Part shown: piece by piece, positions 20,316-49,973 of the stretch
Layout of the letters: the number at the start of each line of letters is the position of its first letter
How positions within the stretch are numbered: the stretch's first letter is position 1
NCBI GenBank assembly: GCA_023954415.1
Contig: JAMLIB010000001.1
Span: 266,001 to 330,000 of the forward strand
Direction of reading: 5' to 3'
Source of the DNA: Trueperaceae bacterium
GTDB taxonomy: Bacteria > Deinococcota > Deinococci > Deinococcales > Trueperaceae
DNA length: 64,000 bases
The notes under the pieces: model-generated
Databases searched by the model: none
Seen by the model: only the letters and a program-made list of their open reading frames with translations
Told to the model about the DNA's origin: nothing
Program-made: the position numbers and the translations under genes

Positions 20316-21581
20316 TCAGGGAGGGGCCAGGCCGCCACCGATGAGCGCCAGCGCCAGTGCCGTGCCGCCTGCGTACTCGCCAAGACCCTCGGAGCCGCCC
20401 TGGCTGCGCAGGTAGGTGGCGTAGACGGCGTCGGTGGCGCGCTGCAACGCCGGGGTGCGGTAGCGCCGCGCCGCCGCTTCCGCCGCACGCGCGTCCTGCC
20501 GGGCGCGCTCCGGCCAGGCGGCAAGGTACTCCCGCTCCTCGTCGGCGCTCGCGGCGGCGAGCAGCGAGCGGGCCAGGCTGAGCGCGGCCGCGTAGCGTAC
20601 GTCCGGGTCGTCGCACGTCAGGCCGGCCACCAGTCCGACGGCCTCCGCCTCCGCCTCCCGGGCGAAGCCCGCCGTGTGTGCGAACTCGTGCAGCGCGACG
20701 GCCAGGCCTGCGGCCGCCGGCAGGCCGGCGTCCACGTGGGGCTCGAGCAGCCAGGGCGAGACGATGCCCGCGTAGCCGCCGCGTAGGAGCGTGCCCGCCG
20801 GCAAGGTCTTGAAGCGGTCCGGCACCGCGGGCAAACCCGCGTCCGCTGCGGCGGTCGCCCGGCGCGCGCCGGGCGCCAGCGTCGCGGGTAGGAACTCGCG
20901 GCGTAGCGCGCCGGCGGTGCGCGCCACGCACCGGGCGGCGGCGGCCCCGAGCGCGGGCGGCAGGTCGGCCGCCGAGCCCGTCACCGAGCTCGCGGTGGCG
21001 CTCGTCGCCGGCTCCGACGCCGCGCCGGCCACCGGGTGGTCTTCCGCGGCGCCCGGCGCCGTGGCCGTCAGGACCGCGACCAAGCGGTACGCGAGGCTCT
21101 CGCCGCCGGCGTGCGCCACCCACGGGTCGACGGACCGACCGGCCTGGCGCTCGGCGACGGCGCTCTTCAGGTCGCTGACGCGGTAGGCGAGCCCGAACGT
21201 GAGCGGGAACGCGGTCACGAGGAGCGCCGCAGGCCACGCGAGCGCGAGCCGGAAGGGGCGCCACGGGCCATGCCGGCCCCGTCGGACGTCGCCCGTCCCT
21301 ACGCCGCTCCGCCGGCGCGAACCTCCCCCTAGACCGACCCGCCGGCGGCCGACGAGCGCTGCGAGCGCGCAGAGCGCCAGCCCCAGGAGCCAGGCCGCCA
21401 GCAGCGCTGCGGAGAGGCTCCAACCAACGCCGGCGGCGAGCCGCGCCGTGACGCGCGTTAGCCGCGGGAACCACCAGCCCATGAAGCCGGCGTCGAGCCA
21501 CGGTTGCGGCCACGGGGCGTACTGGAGCACTAGGCCGGCGGCCGCGACAGCCGCCGCGGCGACGAACGGGCGCCGGGTCAC
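20316..21581 (-). CDS. DUF3810 membrane protein, putative zinc peptidase
   Basis: 421 residues. Three hydrophobic segments lie in the first ~130 residues (about 8-28, 60-85 and 105-125). A soluble domain with ALHEFAHTAGFAREAEAEAV near residue 296 follows. HExxH plus the later Glu matches the zinc site predicted for DUF3810, a family without known function. The GTG start at 21581 overlaps the ABC-F stop by 4 bases (GTGA), so the two are translationally coupled. Longer upstream reading frames lie entirely inside the ABC-F gene and were not used. Confidence 0.75.
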   Translation of the reverse strand: MTRRPFVAAAAVAAAGLVLQYAPWPQPWLDAGFMGWWFPRLTRVTARLAAGVGWSLSAALLAAWLLGLALCALAALVGRRRVGLGGGSRRRSGVGTGDVRRGRHGPWRPFRLALAWPAALLVTAFPLTFGLAYRVSDLKSAVAERQAGRSVDPWVAHAGGESLAYRLVAVLTATAPGAAEDHPVAGAASEPATSATASSVTGSAADLPPALGAAAARCVARTAGALRREFLPATLAPGARRATAAADAGLPAVPDRFKTLPAGTLLRGGYAGIVSPWLLEPHVDAGLPAAAGLAVALHEFAHTAGFAREAEAEAVGLVAGLTCDDPDVRYAAALSLARSLLAAASADEEREYLAAWPERARQDARAAEAAARRYRTPALQRATDAVYATYLRSQGGSEGLGEYAGGTALALALIGGGLAPP

Positions 21582-24112
21582 CGCCCGCCCCCGCCGCCGG
21601 GCCGCCTTCCGCGACGGCCGGCCCGCGGCCCGCGCCGAGGGCCGGCGCGGCGTCCGGTCCGGTGTTCGTCGTGTCCGTTGCCTCGGCTGCCTCGGCGCGC
21701 GTTCCCGTGCTCCTCGCGCCACCCCTCGGCGTGGAGGAAGGCCTCCAGCCGGGCGGTATGCCAACCCTCGCCGGCGGGCCGGAGCCAGCGCGAGGCGAGG
21801 GGGAGCCGGGAGTGCGTCTGGACGGCCGAGACGCCGAGGAGCGTGAAGGCGAGACGCGCGCCGGCGTCCACCACGGCGTTCCGCGCATGCGGCACGAGGC
21901 AGGTGCCGGCCCGCTCGATCAGCTTGAGGTGCGCCACCCCGTCAGACGCGTGCGCCTCCATCCCGGCCAGGACACCGAGCGCGGTCATGGCCGCAGGCGC
22001 GAGCGGCCACGCGGCCAGCGCCGCCCCGGCAGCCTCGTCGCCGATCGTCGAACCCGCCCCGCCTCCCGTCGGGCGCTCCTCCATGAGTACGAGCGCGAGC
22101 TTGCCGTCGACCACGTCCCCGAACACGCTCAGCCCGCCCTCACGAACGCGGTGGCGTGGTGCGGGCCGCGGCGACGCGGCCTCGTAGCGGGCCACCAGCT
22201 CCTCCTCGAGGTGCCGCAGCCTGCGCCTGACGCGCTCGGCTTCCCGCTCCGTGAGGTCGACGGGGTCGGCGAGGCGTGCGAGCAGAGCGGCGCGCTCCTC
22301 CTCGAGGGGGGCCAGGTCGTCGTTCTCGCTGCGTGCGGAGCTCGTCGCGCCGCCGGTCGCTGCCGGGGCGGACGCGACCGCCCCGGCCTTGGGCGGCTCC
22401 TCGGGCGGCTCCTCGCCGGCGACCGCCGGCGCCGGCTCGCCGCGCAGGTACGCGCGCACGTCGCGGTAGCGCACGACGCGGCCGCCCTCGAGCGCCCAGG
22501 CCTCGTCCGTGAGGCGTTCGGCGAGCCGGCGATCGTGGGTCACGAGGATCAGGGCCGACCCGCCGGTTTCGAGCGCCTCGCTCAGCTGCGCCTCGAGCGC
22601 CTCTACGGCTTGCAGGTCGAGGTCGTTGCTCGGCTCGTCGAGCAGCCACAGGTCCGTGCCGTGCGCGAGCGCGAGGGCGAGCCCGGCTCGGGCGCGCTCC
22701 CCGCCCGAGAGCCGCTCCGGGGCGTGGCGCCATACGCTCGCCGTGACGCCGACGCCGGCGAGCAGCCGCGCGGCGCGCGCGGCGCCGACCGCCGCCGCGA
22801 CCTGGCCGAGGACGTCCTCCCCTTCCGCCAGACCGCGCGCCTCCTGGTCGACGAGCCGCAGTCGCAGGCCGGGGAGGTACTCGAGCTCGGCGGCGGGGCC
22901 GGCGTGCGAGAGGTCGCCCGCCAGGCAGCGCAGGAGCGTGGTCTTCCCGCTCCCGTTCGGTCCGAGGACCGCCACGCGTTGGCCCCGCCGCACCTCGAGG
23001 GTGGTGTCCTCGAGCAGCCCGGGCACGCTCAGTTGGCGCGCCGTCAGCAGCGCGGCGTTCCCGGCGCCGCGGGGGCGGCCGCCCCGTGCAGCTACCGGGC
23101 TCGTCCAGCCTCCCCGCCCCTCGTTGCCTCGAGCGGTCACGAAGCGCGCGTCCTCCCGGCTGGCCTCGGTCTGCGCGGCGGCGCGCCCACGTAGCGACGC
23201 GCCCTCCCGCTGCGCCGCCCGCCTGCGCGCCGCCGCCTTGCGGCCGAACGTGGCGAGCTCTGCCGCCATCGTCTCCAGCCGCTCGGCCTCCTTCTCCAGT
23301 TCGCGCCTGCGCTTGGCGCCCGCGCGCTCGGCCGCGTCGAGGCGCTTGCGGGCCGTCGAGTACGCGCCCTTCTCCAGCCGCAGCGTGGTCGCGCCGCCTG
23401 CCGGCACCAGGAACGCCGTGCGGTTGGTCGCGTCGTCGAGGAGCGCCCGGTCGTGGCTGATCACGACGACGGCGCCGTCGTAGGCGGCCAGGCGGCGCGT
23501 CAGCCACTCCCGCGCGGCTAGGTCGAGGTGGTTCGTCGGCTCGTCGAGCAGCAGCGTGTCGGCGGCCACGGCGAGCGCGGCCGCCAGGGCGAGCCTGCGG
23601 CGTTCGCCGGACGAGAGCTCTGCGACCGCGCGGTCCCACGTCGGCGGCGGGAAACCCAGGGCGGCGAAGAGCTCGCGCGCCCGCGCTTGCGCGGCGTAAC
23701 CGCCCCGCCGCTCGAACTCGCCGAGCAGCGCCCGGTGCCGGGCGAAGGGGTCGGCGTGCGGCTCGGCGCGCGCGCCCACCTCGGTCGCGAGGCTCGCCTC
23801 CTCGGCGCGCAGCAGCGCTTCCAGCTCCTTCACGCGTCGGACGGCCGCCGCCGCGACGGCCCCGATCGTCGCGTCGGGCGCCGTCGCCATGGCCTGCGGC
23901 AGGTAGGCGATCTCGGTGCCTGGCGCGCGCCTCACGCGGCCGGTCGTGGGCTGCAACGCGCCTGCGAGGAGGCCGAGCAGGGTGCTCTTGCCGCTCCCGT
24001 TGGGGCCGACGAGCCCGACCCGGTCGCCCGCATCGAGGCGCAGGCCGATGCCCGTGAGCAACTCGGCGCCGCCCAGATCGTAGGCGACGCCTTCCGCTCG
24101 CAGCAGCTCCAC
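21578..24112 (-). CDS. ABC-F ATPase with an unusual C-terminal extension
   Basis: 844 residues against about 520-650 for typical ABC-F proteins. Two ABC cassettes are complete: GPNGSGKST, LSSGERRR and LLLDEPTNHLD in the first; GPNGSGKTT, LSGGERAR and LLDEPSNDLD in the second; a charged linker lies between them. There are no membrane segments, as expected for a ribosome-acting translation factor or resistance protein. After a short coiled coil (about 620-660) comes an unrecognised domain (about 670-800) and a basic Gly/Arg-rich tail. The GTG start at 24112 directly abuts the TAG of an 18-codon leader reading frame. Confidence 0.88.
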   Translation of the reverse strand: MELLRAEGVAYDLGGAELLTGIGLRLDAGDRVGLVGPNGSGKSTLLGLLAGALQPTTGRVRRAPGTEIAYLPQAMATAPDATIGAVAAAAVRRVKELEALLRAEEASLATEVGARAEPHADPFARHRALLGEFERRGGYAAQARARELFAALGFPPPTWDRAVAELSSGERRRLALAAALAVAADTLLLDEPTNHLDLAAREWLTRRLAAYDGAVVVISHDRALLDDATNRTAFLVPAGGATTLRLEKGAYSTARKRLDAAERAGAKRRRELEKEAERLETMAAELATFGRKAAARRRAAQREGASLRGRAAAQTEASREDARFVTARGNEGRGGWTSPVAARGGRPRGAGNAALLTARQLSVPGLLEDTTLEVRRGQRVAVLGPNGSGKTTLLRCLAGDLSHAGPAAELEYLPGLRLRLVDQEARGLAEGEDVLGQVAAAVGAARAARLLAGVGVTASVWRHAPERLSGGERARAGLALALAHGTDLWLLDEPSNDLDLQAVEALEAQLSEALETGGSALILVTHDRRLAERLTDEAWALEGGRVVRYRDVRAYLRGEPAPAVAGEEPPEEPPKAGAVASAPAATGGATSSARSENDDLAPLEEERAALLARLADPVDLTEREAERVRRRLRHLEEELVARYEAASPRPAPRHRVREGGLSVFGDVVDGKLALVLMEERPTGGGAGSTIGDEAAGAALAAWPLAPAAMTALGVLAGMEAHASDGVAHLKLIERAGTCLVPHARNAVVDAGARLAFTLLGVSAVQTHSRLPLASRWLRPAGEGWHTARLEAFLHAEGWREEHGNARRGSRGNGHDEHRTGRRAGPRRGPRAGRRGRRPGGGGGR

Positions 24113-24169
24113 CTAGGCCCCGGCGGGCGCCGGGGGGCGCCGCGCTGAGCTGGTCACGGCAAGCTCCAT
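24113..24169 (-). CDS. Predicted 18-residue leader peptide upstream of the ABC-F gene
   Basis: ATG at 24169-24167 opens an 18-codon frame reading MELAVTSSARRPPAPAGA that ends in TAG (24115-24113), directly followed by the ABC-F GTG in the same frame. A TAAGAT -10 box ends 6 bases before the ATG, so the leader should be translated from a leaderless mRNA. The Arg-Arg-Pro-Pro stretch could slow ribosomes. Regulation of ABC-F genes by leader-peptide attenuation is well known in Firmicutes and actinobacteria. Alternative: the TAG is a sequence error and this is an N-terminal extension. Confidence 0.5.
   Translation of the reverse strand: MELAVTSSARRPPAPAGA
24118..24141 (-). promoter_or_regulatory. 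Two mutually exclusive hairpins in the ABC-F leader
   Basis: On the minus-strand transcript, GGCGCC-CCCC-GGCGCC (24141 to 24126) can form a 6-bp stem. CCCCGGC-GCCC-GCCGGGG (24135 to 24118) can form a 7-bp stem. They share bases 24126-24135, so only one can exist at a time, and the second ends 5 bases before the ABC-F start codon. This resembles attenuator geometry; no T-run is present. Confidence 0.45.
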
Positions 24170-24175
24170 CCGGCA

Positions 24176-24181
24176 ATCTTA
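24176..24181 (-). promoter_or_regulatory. Leaderless-type -10 box (TAAGAT) of the ABC-F leader
   Basis: TAAGAT is followed by TGCCGG and then the ATG of the leader peptide at 24169. Confidence 0.5.
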
Positions 24182-24209: not shown

Positions 24210-24215
24210 TATGCT
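24210..24215 (+). promoter_or_regulatory. Leaderless-type -10 box (TATGCT) of the RNHCP gene
   Basis: TATGCT ends 6 bases before ATG 24222. Confidence 0.5.
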
Positions 24216-24221
24216 GCGCGC

Positions 24222-24560
24222 ATGAAGCGCTTCACGGGCGCGGGAGCCAACCAACCGTTCGTATGCCTGGAGTGCGGCGCCAGCGTGCCCCCCTTGGCGG
24301 CGGGCGGTTACCGCAACCACTGCCCGTACTGCCTACACTCCTTGCACGTCGACATCGACCCTGGCGACAGGGCCAACCCCTGTCGTGGGGTCCTCGAACC
24401 CGTCGCGGTCGAGCACAGCCAGAAGAAGGGCTGGGTGATCGTCCACCGCTGCCGCGCGTGCGGCGCCACCTCGCGCAACCGCGCGGCCCTTGACGACCCG
24501 GAGTGCCCCGACGACTTCGACCTCATCATCGCCTTGGCCAGCGGGGCCGTGCCGCTCTAG
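24222..24560 (+). CDS. RNHCP domain protein
   Basis: 112 residues, about the size of the whole domain. Cys pairs CLEC (15-18) and CPYC (34-37) and a later CRAC suggest two zinc-binding knuckles; the name-giving RNHCPYC motif is at 31-37, followed by the conserved CRGVLEPVAV and HRCRACG segments. The family has no established function; a nucleic-acid-binding role is often guessed. No Shine-Dalgarno is present and a -10 box sits 6 bases upstream, so the mRNA is predicted leaderless. It diverges from the ABC-F operon. Confidence 0.85.
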   Translation: MKRFTGAGANQPFVCLECGASVPPLAAGGYRNHCPYCLHSLHVDIDPGDRANPCRGVLEPVAVEHSQKKGWVIVHRCRACGATSRNRAALDDPECPDDFDLIIALASGAVPL

Positions 24561-40598: not shown

Positions 40599-40609
40599 CG
40601 TAAACTGAG

Positions 40610-40633
40610 TTCGTGTACCAGGCGGTACACGAA
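40610..40633. promoter_or_regulatory. Probable TetR operator: perfect 10+4+10 inverted repeat
   Basis: TTCGTGTACC (40610-40619), AGGC and GGTACACGAA (40624-40633) form a perfect palindrome between divergent genes, 11 bases from each start codon. Size and position fit a TetR dimer site controlling both directions. Confidence 0.75.
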
Positions 40634-40644
40634 TGGAGCCGAGG

Positions 40645-41505
40645 ATGAGTGAGACGATCGTCGTGGCGGGAGCGACCGGGTACCTCGGTCGGCACGTGGT
40701 CACTGCGCTGGACGCGCGCGGATACGGCGTACGCGCGCTGGTCCGCTCGCGAGAGCGGGCGGAGGCGCCGGGTGCGTTCGGTGCGCCCAGCCTCGCCGGG
40801 CATGTCGCGCAGTGGCGCGTCGTCGACTACCGGGACCCCACCACGCTCCGGGACGCCTGCGAAGGAGCGACGCGCGTGGTGTCGGCGCTTGGCGTCACCC
40901 GGCAGAAGGCGAGCCCATGGGACATCGACTTCCTAGGCAACCTTCGGCTCCTCGAGGATGCCGAGCGGCACGGGGTGGTGTCGTTCCTTTATGTCAACGT
41001 GCTGCACTCGGACAGCGGCACGTCGCTGACGATGCGGGCCAAGCACGCGTTCTCCGAGGTGCTGCGCCGCAGCGGCGTGGCTGGGCAGATCGTCAACCCC
41101 TCTGGGTACTTCTCCGACATCACGGACTTCCTGCTCATGGCCAGGAAAGGGGTGGGTTTCACGGTCGGCTCCGGCGAAGCGCGCGTCAACCCGATCCACG
41201 GTGCCGACCTCGCGGAGTTCATCGTGGAGCGCCTGGCGGGGCCGGCGGGAAGCTGGGACGTCGGCGGCCCCGACGTCTTCACTTACCGTGAGTTGGAGGA
41301 GCTCGCGTTCCGCGTCGCCGGCCGCCGGCCCCGCGTGCTGCGCCTCGGGTCCGGCGCCACGCGCCCGTTGCTGTGGGCGGCGGACCGCAGCTCGCCCCGC
41401 ATCGGCAACCTCGCCCGCTTCTTCCTGGAATCCCTCGCTGTCGACGCCTTAGGAACACCGACCGGCGCGCGCCGGCTCGAACCGTACCTGAGGTCGTTGC
41501 CGTAG
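40645..41505 (+). CDS. NAD(P)-binding atypical SDR/NmrA-like protein
   Basis: 286 residues. GATGYLG (9-15) is the atypical-SDR cofactor loop; the rest follows the NmrA/UDP-epimerase-like pattern (VSALGVTRQKASPWDID, then LYVNVLH). A short hydrophobic C-terminal section has LLWAADRSS. Function unknown; NAD(P)H-dependent reduction is likely. ATG 40645 has GGAG 6 bases upstream; ATG 40633 overlaps the operator and is less likely. It is probably derepressed when the adjacent TetR protein binds its ligand. Confidence 0.82.
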   Translation: MSETIVVAGATGYLGRHVVTALDARGYGVRALVRSRERAEAPGAFGAPSLAGHVAQWRVVDYRDPTTLRDACEGATRVVSALGVTRQKASPWDIDFLGNLRLLEDAERHGVVSFLYVNVLHSDSGTSLTMRAKHAFSEVLRRSGVAGQIVNPSGYFSDITDFLLMARKGVGFTVGSGEARVNPIHGADLAEFIVERLAGPAGSWDVGGPDVFTYRELEELAFRVAGRRPRVLRLGSGATRPLLWAADRSSPRIGNLARFFLESLAVDALGTPTGARRLEPYLRSLP

Positions 41506-47462: not shown

Positions 47463-49667
47463 CTAGACGAGCGAGACCGGCCGCGCGAACACGGCGGCGC
47501 CGTCCTCGATCGTCACGATCAGCGGCTCCTCGCCGCCGTGCTCGAGGAGCTCGAGCGAGAGGGGGTCCTCGATGAACTCGCGGATGACGCCGCGCAGGGG
47601 CCGCACGCTCTCCCCCTTGGGGAGGCGTTCCACGAGGAAGGAGGCGACCTCGGGTCCGAACGTCACGTGGACGTCGCGGCCCTGGAGCTCGTGGCGGATG
47701 TCGTCGAGCATCTGGTTCGTGATGATGACGATGTCTTCCTTCGTGAACGAGTCGAAGGCGATGACCTCGTCGAGCCGGTCGAGGAACTCGGGGGAGAAGA
47801 TGCCCTTGAGCGGCTCCGTGCTCTGCTGTGCGCCGTCCTGGAAGCCGATGAGGCTCCCGGAGCGGTTGAAGCCCGTGTTGCTCGTCATGATCAGGATGAC
47901 GCGGCGGAGGTCCACGGTGCGGCCGAGGCCGTCCGTCAGGCGGCCGTCGTCGAGGACCTGCAGGAACGTGTTGTAGATGTCCGGGTGCGCCTTCTCGATC
48001 TCGTCGAGGAGCACGACGCTGAAGGGCTGGCGCCTGACTGCCTCCGTGAGCCTGCCGCCCTGCTCGTGGCCGACGTAGCCCGGAGGGGCGCCGATGAGCT
48101 TGCTTATCGAGTGCGGCTCCTGGTACTCGCTCATGTCGAGGCGCACTAGCGAGCGCTCGCTGCCGAAGAGGAGCGTGGCGAGTTGCTTCGCGAGGTAGGT
48201 CTTGCCGACGCCGGACGGACCGACGAACAGGAAGGAGGCCGCGACGCGGGTGCGCCCGCCGAGGCCGACGCGCGCGCGCCTGAGCGCCGCGCCGAGGGCG
48301 CGGATGGCGTTGCGCTGCCCGACGACGTGCCGCTTGAGGTGCTCCTCGATGTGGGCGAGCTTCTCGTTGTCCTGGTCGTCGACGTAGATGCCGCCCCAGG
48401 AGTCGACTACGGCCTCGAGGTCCTCGCGGCTCACGATGGGCGTGCCGTCCGGCTCCTCCAGGACGGGGAAGCCGAGCGACTTGTTGAGGCGCGTCCGGGC
48501 GGCAGCCTCGTCGATGAGGTCGATGGCCTTGTCGGGGAAGTTGCGGCCAGGCAGGCTGCGCTCGCCGAAGCGGACGGCCAGCTCCAGCATCTCCTTCGGG
48601 ATGACGACGCCGTGGTGGGCCTCGTACTTGTTGCGCAGGCCGACGAGGATCTCGAGCGACTCCTCGGGGGAGGGCTCGAGGACGATGACGGGTTGGAAGC
48701 GCCGCTCGAGAGCGGCGTCCTTCTCGATGTAGCGGTGGTACTCGCCCGTCGTGGTGGCGCCGATGACCTGCACCTCGCCGCGGGAGAGGGGTGGCTTGAG
48801 GATGTTGGCGGCGTCGAGCGTGCCCTCGGCCCCGCCCGCCCCGACGAGTGTGTGCAGCTCGTCGATGAAGGCCACGACGCGGGCGTTCTTGAGCTCCTCG
48901 ATGATCTGCCTGAGCCGCTCCTCGAACTCGCCCCGGTACTTCGTGCCGGCAACGACGTTGCTGAGGTCGATGGAGAGGACCCTGACGTTGAGCAGCGTTG
49001 GTGGGACGCGGCCCTCGACGATGGCCTGGGCCAGCCCCTCGACGATGGCCGTCTTGCCGACGCCCGGCTCGCCGATGAGCACCGGGTTGTTCTTCGTGCG
49101 GCGTGAGAGGATCTGGATGACCCTGCGGATCTCCTCCGTGCGCCCGATGACCGGGTCGAGCTTGCCGTCGTGCGCCTCGCGCGTGAGGTCGCGCGCGTAC
49201 TCGTCGAGGAACGGCGTGTTGACGGCGCCCGCCTGGTTCTTCGGGTCGGCGGCGGCGAGGATGCGCCAGCGCACCGCGTCGACGTCGCGCGTGAGGTTCT
49301 GCAGTATCCGGTAGGCGACGCCGTCGCCCTCGCGGATGATGCCGAGCAGGATGTGCTCCGTGGCGATGACGTTCGAGCCGAGGCTGCGCGCTTCCGAGCC
49401 GGCGAGCTCCATGACCCGCCTGGCGCGCGGCGTGATGGCCGCCTCGTTCTTGGGCAGGCCGTCGCCGCGGCCGACCATCTCCTCGACGAGGAGCCGGAAG
49501 TTGTCGAGGGTGGCGTCGAACTCTTCGAGGATCTTGCTGGCCGTGCCCCCCTCGCGCATCAGGCCGAGGAGGAGGTGCTCGGGGCCGATCATGCCGTGCC
49601 CGAGCCGCGTGCCTTCCTCGCGCGCGTAGTGGAAGACGAGCTTCGAACGGTCGTCGTACCTGTTCAT
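47463..49667 (-). CDS. clpC: Clp protease ATP-binding subunit, ClpC-type
   Basis: 734 residues from ATG 49667 (MNRYDDRSKLVF). A Clp N-domain with two repeats (about 1-145) is followed by AAA domain 1 (GEPGVGKTA, FIDELHT) and AAA domain 2 (GPSGVGKTYLAK, VLLDEIEKAHPD), then a C-terminal D2-small domain. It unfolds proteins for the ClpP protease. The coiled middle domain typical of ClpC/ClpB seems absent: only a short linker joins the two AAA modules, so ClpA-like naming is also defensible. First gene of clpC-radA-PIN. Confidence 0.9.
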   Translation of the reverse strand: MNRYDDRSKLVFHYAREEGTRLGHGMIGPEHLLLGLMREGGTASKILEEFDATLDNFRLLVEEMVGRGDGLPKNEAAITPRARRVMELAGSEARSLGSNVIATEHILLGIIREGDGVAYRILQNLTRDVDAVRWRILAAADPKNQAGAVNTPFLDEYARDLTREAHDGKLDPVIGRTEEIRRVIQILSRRTKNNPVLIGEPGVGKTAIVEGLAQAIVEGRVPPTLLNVRVLSIDLSNVVAGTKYRGEFEERLRQIIEELKNARVVAFIDELHTLVGAGGAEGTLDAANILKPPLSRGEVQVIGATTTGEYHRYIEKDAALERRFQPVIVLEPSPEESLEILVGLRNKYEAHHGVVIPKEMLELAVRFGERSLPGRNFPDKAIDLIDEAAARTRLNKSLGFPVLEEPDGTPIVSREDLEAVVDSWGGIYVDDQDNEKLAHIEEHLKRHVVGQRNAIRALGAALRRARVGLGGRTRVAASFLFVGPSGVGKTYLAKQLATLLFGSERSLVRLDMSEYQEPHSISKLIGAPPGYVGHEQGGRLTEAVRRQPFSVVLLDEIEKAHPDIYNTFLQVLDDGRLTDGLGRTVDLRRVILIMTSNTGFNRSGSLIGFQDGAQQSTEPLKGIFSPEFLDRLDEVIAFDSFTKEDIVIITNQMLDDIRHELQGRDVHVTFGPEVASFLVERLPKGESVRPLRGVIREFIEDPLSLELLEHGGEEPLIVTIEDGAAVFARPVSLV

Positions 49668-49973
49668 GCACCCACCGGGTAAGCGGTCGAGGGGGAGCCC
49701 GCGTGGCGCGGGGTCGCTGGAAGCGGGATCGTCGGAAGCGGACTGCGCCGCGTGTACATGCCGCAATAGTACCCGCACGGGCCACAGGGCGGCTGCGACT
49801 TCGTTACCTTTTCCTTCACGGAGCCGTCAGGATTCGCGCGCGCGCGGCTCTCTACTCGCCGGCGGCCAGGCGAACACCGGCCCCGTTCGCGGCTTCGTGC
49901 CCCGGCCTGCGTTTAGAATCCGAAGGTCGGCACGGCGCTTGCGAACGGTCGCCGTGCGGCCATTAGGAGTCGC
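49668..49973. other. 306-base divergent region between clpC and glyQ
   Basis: No gene. It holds a candidate clpC -10 box on the minus strand (TACTAT, 49771-49766) and the glyQ -10 box TAGAAT (49914-49919). About 54 bases of glyQ leader end in AGGAG; no T-box features were found. Confidence 0.5.
49914..49919 (+). promoter_or_regulatory. -10 box (TAGAAT) of glyQS
   Basis: TAGAAT is followed by a 54-base leader ending in AGGAG just before ATG 49974. A -35 hexamer is not clear. Confidence 0.45.

Follow-up and report, generated by a model that had tools for sequence, protein, structure and literature searches.

The ABC-F ATPase gene in the window (the whole 64,000-nucleotide stretch of a Trueperaceae genome analyzed here) is probably fed with ribosomes by a leaderless, translationally coupled micro-ORF, as judged from the sequence of the locus and its relatives. 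Transcription would start at or beside the A of position 24169, with the mRNA opening on an AUG. A ribosome would bind this 5′-terminal start codon without a Shine-Dalgarno site, translate 18 codons, terminate at a UAG that touches the GUG of the ABC-F gene, and reinitiate there. The peptide would be a by-product, and the conserved function would lie in supplying the ABC-F start with ribosomes. Conservation falls on the layout rather than on the peptide.

The organization of the locus is that described by a first-pass annotation of this DNA, and every element of it was confirmed in the sequence (Table 1): a TAAGAT box, six bases, an ATG, 18 codons, and a TAG abutting the GTG of an ABC-F gene with zero gap and in frame. 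The bare TANNNT-N6-RTG pattern is common by chance (8 occurrences in the window vs. 4.9 expected), but the case in front of the ABC-F gene is intergenic, and each of the six genus genomes retains it. No match to a −35/−10 sigma-70 promoter was found at the micro-ORF locus, and a search by eye for a second promoter found no TANNNT directly 5′ of the ABC-F GTG.

Table 1. Coordinates of the micro-ORF, the ABC-F gene and the divergent neighbor in the window.
Feature	Position	Strand	Remarks
−10 box TAAGAT of the ABC-F transcript	24181-24176	minus	Same in 6/6 genus members; TANNNT at spacing 5-8 is the leaderless signal in the window genome
6-base spacer TGCCGG; predicted transcription start 24169	24175-24170	minus	Letters vary among relatives; length 6 in 6/6
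Putative leaderless 18-codon micro-ORF MELAVTSSARRPPAPAGA	24113..24169; ATG 24169-24167, TAG 24115-24113	minus	RTG kept in 6/6 genomes; peptide not conserved
ABC-F ATPase, 844 aa, GTG start 24112-24110	21578..24112	minus	Pfam ABC_tran x2; NF000355 285 bits; PDB YheS/EttA best
−10 box TATGCT of the divergent RNHCP gene, 6 bases 5′ of its ATG	24210..24215	plus	Read from the sequence
RNHCP-domain protein, 112 aa, divergent neighbor of ABC-F	24222..24560	plus	Pfam RNHCP E 7.9e-34

The product of the downstream gene has the features of an ABC-F ATPase, namely two tandem ABC domains (~ residues 5-540, Pfam ABC_tran twice), an inter-domain linker, no membrane domain, and Walker and signature motifs that read as intact in both halves (GPNGSGKST, LSSGERRRL and LLLDEPTNHLD in the first; GPNGSGKTT, LSGGERARA and LLDEPSNDLD in the second). 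Its best NCBIfam matches are ABC-F models, all under their curated cut-offs. None of the NCBIfam resistance ABC-F families scored above cut-off (the best, NF000355, reached 284.8 vs. 380 bits), the Msr, Vga, Lsa, Sal and CarA models fell far under theirs, and YheS and EttA were the best solved relatives in a PDB sequence search. A C-terminal extension of ~290 aa (21578-22435, minus strand) had no sequence match in Pfam or PDB, and long open frames of ~740-840 aa are likewise found in many of the best-matching relatives within the family. A contig search with the ABC-F protein as query returned only distant relatives (25-36% identity). By eye, the N-terminal coding sequence of the RNHCP protein can be made out, in divergent orientation to ABC-F, in the members of the genus as well as in G009 and G010.

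Across the genus, for which six genomes were compared (the window genome, or G000, and G001 to G005), an ABC-F ortholog with TAAGAT-N6-RTG in front was present in every one. In the alignment, the second and third bases of the start codon (T and G) do not vary, whereas spacer and leader diverge, and in several relatives GUG replaces AUG as the micro-ORF start. The leaders read MELAVTSSARRPPAPAGA in the window genome, VELAVTSSPQRQPAPAGV in G003, MELALTGSPLRPAASAEA in G005, VTAPSRAAGNRRRR in G004, VDHKRLAATRPVTWSC in G001 and VPAPSPTPEGAWSSWSLAA in G002. From the micro-ORF stop to the ABC-F start, the distance is 0 in the window genome, G003 and G005, +2 in G004, −13 in G001 and −28 in G002 (values for G003 and G004 were taken by reading the sequence, where the script had picked a later TTG). 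The short frame accordingly ends between 2 bases before and 13 bases inside the ABC-F start in five of the six genomes, and 28 bases inside it in the sixth, G002, where a GGAAGG lies upstream of the gene and coupling may be weak. The frame relative to ABC-F is shared in the window genome, G003 and G005, and is another one in G004, G002 and G001. The first-pass annotation had set a sense codon in place of the TAG in related genomes against its own reading; the TAG is kept in the two closest relatives, and the short frames of the other three end elsewhere near the start. Beyond the genus, the RNHCP/ABC-F arrangement recurs in G009, a member of another genus, with TACGGT-N7-GTG opening a 15-codon frame that ends 10 nt into ABC-F, as measured to the VELIALRG start of its protein; in more distant members of the family, e.g., G044, G015 and G010, the micro-ORF is absent before ABC-F.

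This conservation, together with a box spacing that equals the genome's own leaderless spacing, argues for the leaderless start and tight coupling that the first-pass annotation had put forward. When distances from TANNNT to called gene starts were tallied (200-400 kb samples, genes called with a simple home-made hexamer-based caller), a sharp peak at 5-8, most often 6, was obtained for the window genome and two congeners, and likewise for Truepera radiovictrix and two further families; it is this peak that identifies the spacing before the ABC-F micro-ORF as the leaderless one.

The same annotation had further proposed regulation by ribosome stalling with alternative hairpins, i.e., a leader peptide that would sense a drug or stress by stalling on Arg-Arg-Pro-Pro and induce ABC-F through a hairpin switch, as for msrD or erm. 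ABC-F resistance genes can indeed be so controlled (MsrDL, PMC10314930), and a leader ORF is present here and adjoins an ABC-F gene. However, RRPP occurs only in the window genome among the genus leaders, with QRQP and LRPA in its nearest relatives and nothing comparable elsewhere, which leaves neither motif nor peptide conserved even inside the genus. Compared to G003, the window genome has 9 differences in the 57 leader bases vs. 28 in 600 bases of ABC-F (p-value 0.003), the leader thus diverging faster than the gene; the leader differences fall 2:3:4 over the codon positions, and they amount to 5 amino-acid changes and 2 silent ones; this comparison revealed no codon-position bias and no peptide-level constraint. 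As for the two mutually exclusive hairpins placed at 24118-24141, GC-rich foldbacks can be drawn, but their energies are those of dinucleotide shuffles (z-scores of +0.39 for the leader, +0.30 for the junction and +0.30 for the hairpin segment), and the relatives fold differently (z-scores from −1.15 to +0.73), with no common fold seen by inspection. No intrinsic terminator was found at the micro-ORF/ABC-F locus, which has no intergenic space between leader and gene, and the window ABC-F scores under the cut-off of every resistance family. The MsrDL-msrD system, alike in having a short leader ORF before an ABC-F gene, is thus unlike this locus in both its drug-sensing stalling peptide and its Rho-independent terminator. 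Because peptide and RRPP are unconserved, the hairpins are at shuffle level and not common to the relatives, and a terminator is lacking, none of the hallmarks of a stall attenuator (a conserved stall peptide; conserved alternative hairpins or a terminator) is seen, the stalling half of the proposal is unsupported, and we regard a sensing leader as quite improbable.

A plainer alternative is an idle RTG within a short 5′ UTR, tolerated as an accident of a leaderless-style promoter, with ABC-F initiated independently. The chance frequency of the bare box-RTG pattern is in keeping with this, as are the GGAAGG in G002 and the middling Shine-Dalgarno energy of the ABC-F start (−4.9 kcal/mol, compared to medians of −5.6 for non-leaderless and −2.4 for leaderless genes). 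The latter value, since it lies near −5.6, makes it possible that ABC-F is initiated independently to some extent. An idle RTG nevertheless seems unlikely, as the codon stands at the exact spacing in six of six genomes while its flanks diverge, and the enrichment of short ORFs at leaderless spacing concerns mainly those that terminate at a gene start (see below). Still another reading makes the leader the true N-terminus of ABC-F, interrupted by a read-through stop or an assembly error. Leader and gene do share a frame in the window genome, G003 and G005, and the distant G037 has an in-frame leaderless-type extension, without a stop, before the same domain start. Against this, the TAG is found in three genomes and the frame is changed in the three others (G004, G002 and G001), on which grounds sequencing error or readthrough was rejected; the identity of the TAG-GTG junction in G003 and G005 in particular indicates that the TAG is not a sequencing error. 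Moreover, ABC-F proteins normally start at the VELLRAEGV segment, and family matches of the window ABC-F begin at residues 1-20. We therefore find a split N-terminus barely credible.

To place the putative ribosome-delivering micro-ORF in its genomic context, ORFs of <40 codons were counted whose RTG start lies at each distance after an intergenic TANNNT, over 1.6 Mb from three genomes of the genus (genes again called with the home-made caller), an ORF being considered as “coupled” if it ended −30 to +12 of the next gene start, and with expectations taken from distances 10-30. At distances 5-7, 36 coupled short ORFs were observed vs. 8.6 expected (~4x), and 18 vs. 11.3 for those ending elsewhere (Fisher p-value for the contrast 0.003, which is optimistic, as orthologous genes common to G000 and G005 are not independent counts). 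Taken singly, the window genome gave 16 vs. 3.3 coupled, with a contrast to those ending elsewhere that was not significant (p-value 0.19), and only G001 reached significance (10 vs. 2.4 coupled, 1 vs. 4.6 elsewhere, p-value 0.0009). Part of the −4 (RTGA) signal in this class is inherent in any start codon followed by A. Outside the genus, coupled short ORFs were also in excess, though more weakly, in two other families as well as in T. radiovictrix. The limit of <40 codons was set because a 41-codon frame before an L20-like gene, tried as a family-wide micro-ORF candidate and rejected, is presumably the end of rpmI.

Several other coupled micro-ORFs were noted individually. In the window, TACTAT-N6-ATG opens a 31-codon frame (49664-49771, minus strand) that runs by an RTGA overlap into the gene of a ClpC-like ATPase. 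G005 keeps the box, the spacing, the overlap and, in part, the peptide; in G001, box and spacing are unchanged and the overlap is 8 nt. An 11-codon frame, VYQAVHEWSRG (40601-40648, plus strand), follows TAAACT-N6-GTG and overlaps by RTGA an NAD(P)-binding epimerase-like gene. Two more, shared by G000 (C1, L126-L145) and G005 (C12, L146-L165), have conserved peptides, VKAPVIAFGQRPRRPRQVEEK being identical in both and the other reading VTRPNYLGVDRTLAH..GGGFSLPEA; a peptide-dependent leader is more plausible for these two than for the ABC-F micro-ORF. A sample from another Deinococcota family (G020, L226-L235) includes a 14-codon micro-ORF, TATAAT-N7-GTG, with an RTGA overlap before a GyrB-like gene.

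The closest known parallel comes from mycobacteria, in which leaderless small ORFs are coupled to downstream genes, including a case where only the leaderless start and the coupling are conserved (Shell et al., 2015, PMC4633059). The two share a 5′-terminal RTG (a predicted one at the ABC-F locus, placed at leaderless spacing from the box), an ORF ending at the next gene start, and a conserved linkage with an unconserved peptide (PMC4633059, Fig 6B): at the ABC-F locus, too, the linkage is better conserved than the peptide, and the 18-codon ORF stops right at the next gene (distance 0). They differ in that the mycobacterial ORFs overlap by RTGA where TAG abuts GTG here, and in that the present case belongs to another phylum (Trueperaceae, Deinococcota) and is predicted from sequence. 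The novelty that the first-pass annotation had seen in such coupling thus holds only in part: the class has been described in mycobacteria, and not in Deinococcota within the literature searched. For Deinococcus-Thermus, a TANNNT −10 motif located ~6-7 bp upstream of the ORF is described as driving leaderless genes (PMC12340547), i.e., the same box and spacing in the same phylum, although the box there belongs to the annotated gene. Where a start after the box was out of frame, that paper considered a sequencing error possible, and the passages found do not bring up micro-ORFs. A paper on small peptides of D. radiodurans (PMC9650054) does not mention uORFs or leaders. In E. coli, mRNAs with a 5′-terminal uAUG similarly show that such a start codon recruits ribosomes and can influence the gene that follows (ptrB falls to <8% without the uAUG; PMC4965119), whereas the genes following those uAUGs come with Shine-Dalgarno sites and untranslated leaders. 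More generally, a proposal made for many phyla, Deinococcus-Thermus among them, is that leader ORFs lying near genes increase expression through reinitiation (PMC4833913), and a review names the ribosome-delivery role of such leader ORFs (PMC12548453).

A variant that retains regulation but needs no stall peptide would have the leaderless micro-ORF sense the mode of initiation, with ABC-F kept or raised under inhibition of canonical initiation or a build-up of 70S particles. We consider this a long shot; if true, leaderless loading would persist under antibiotic or stress, and a ribosome-tending ABC-F factor would be selectively kept or raised.

With ribosome delivery as the preferred reading, what was suspected to be an antibiotic-sensing leader becomes an example of a simpler and broader rule, namely that disposable 5′-terminal micro-ORFs can feed genes in a leaderless-rich lineage. 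The modest surprise is the apparent abundance of coupled leaderless micro-ORFs in Deinococcota: the 36 cases in 1.6 Mb, ~27 over expectation, suggest that a genome of this Trueperaceae genus has ~50-70 such genes. Coupled micro-ORFs also offer an alternative to “sequencing error” for out-of-frame starts after −10 boxes in Deinococcota.
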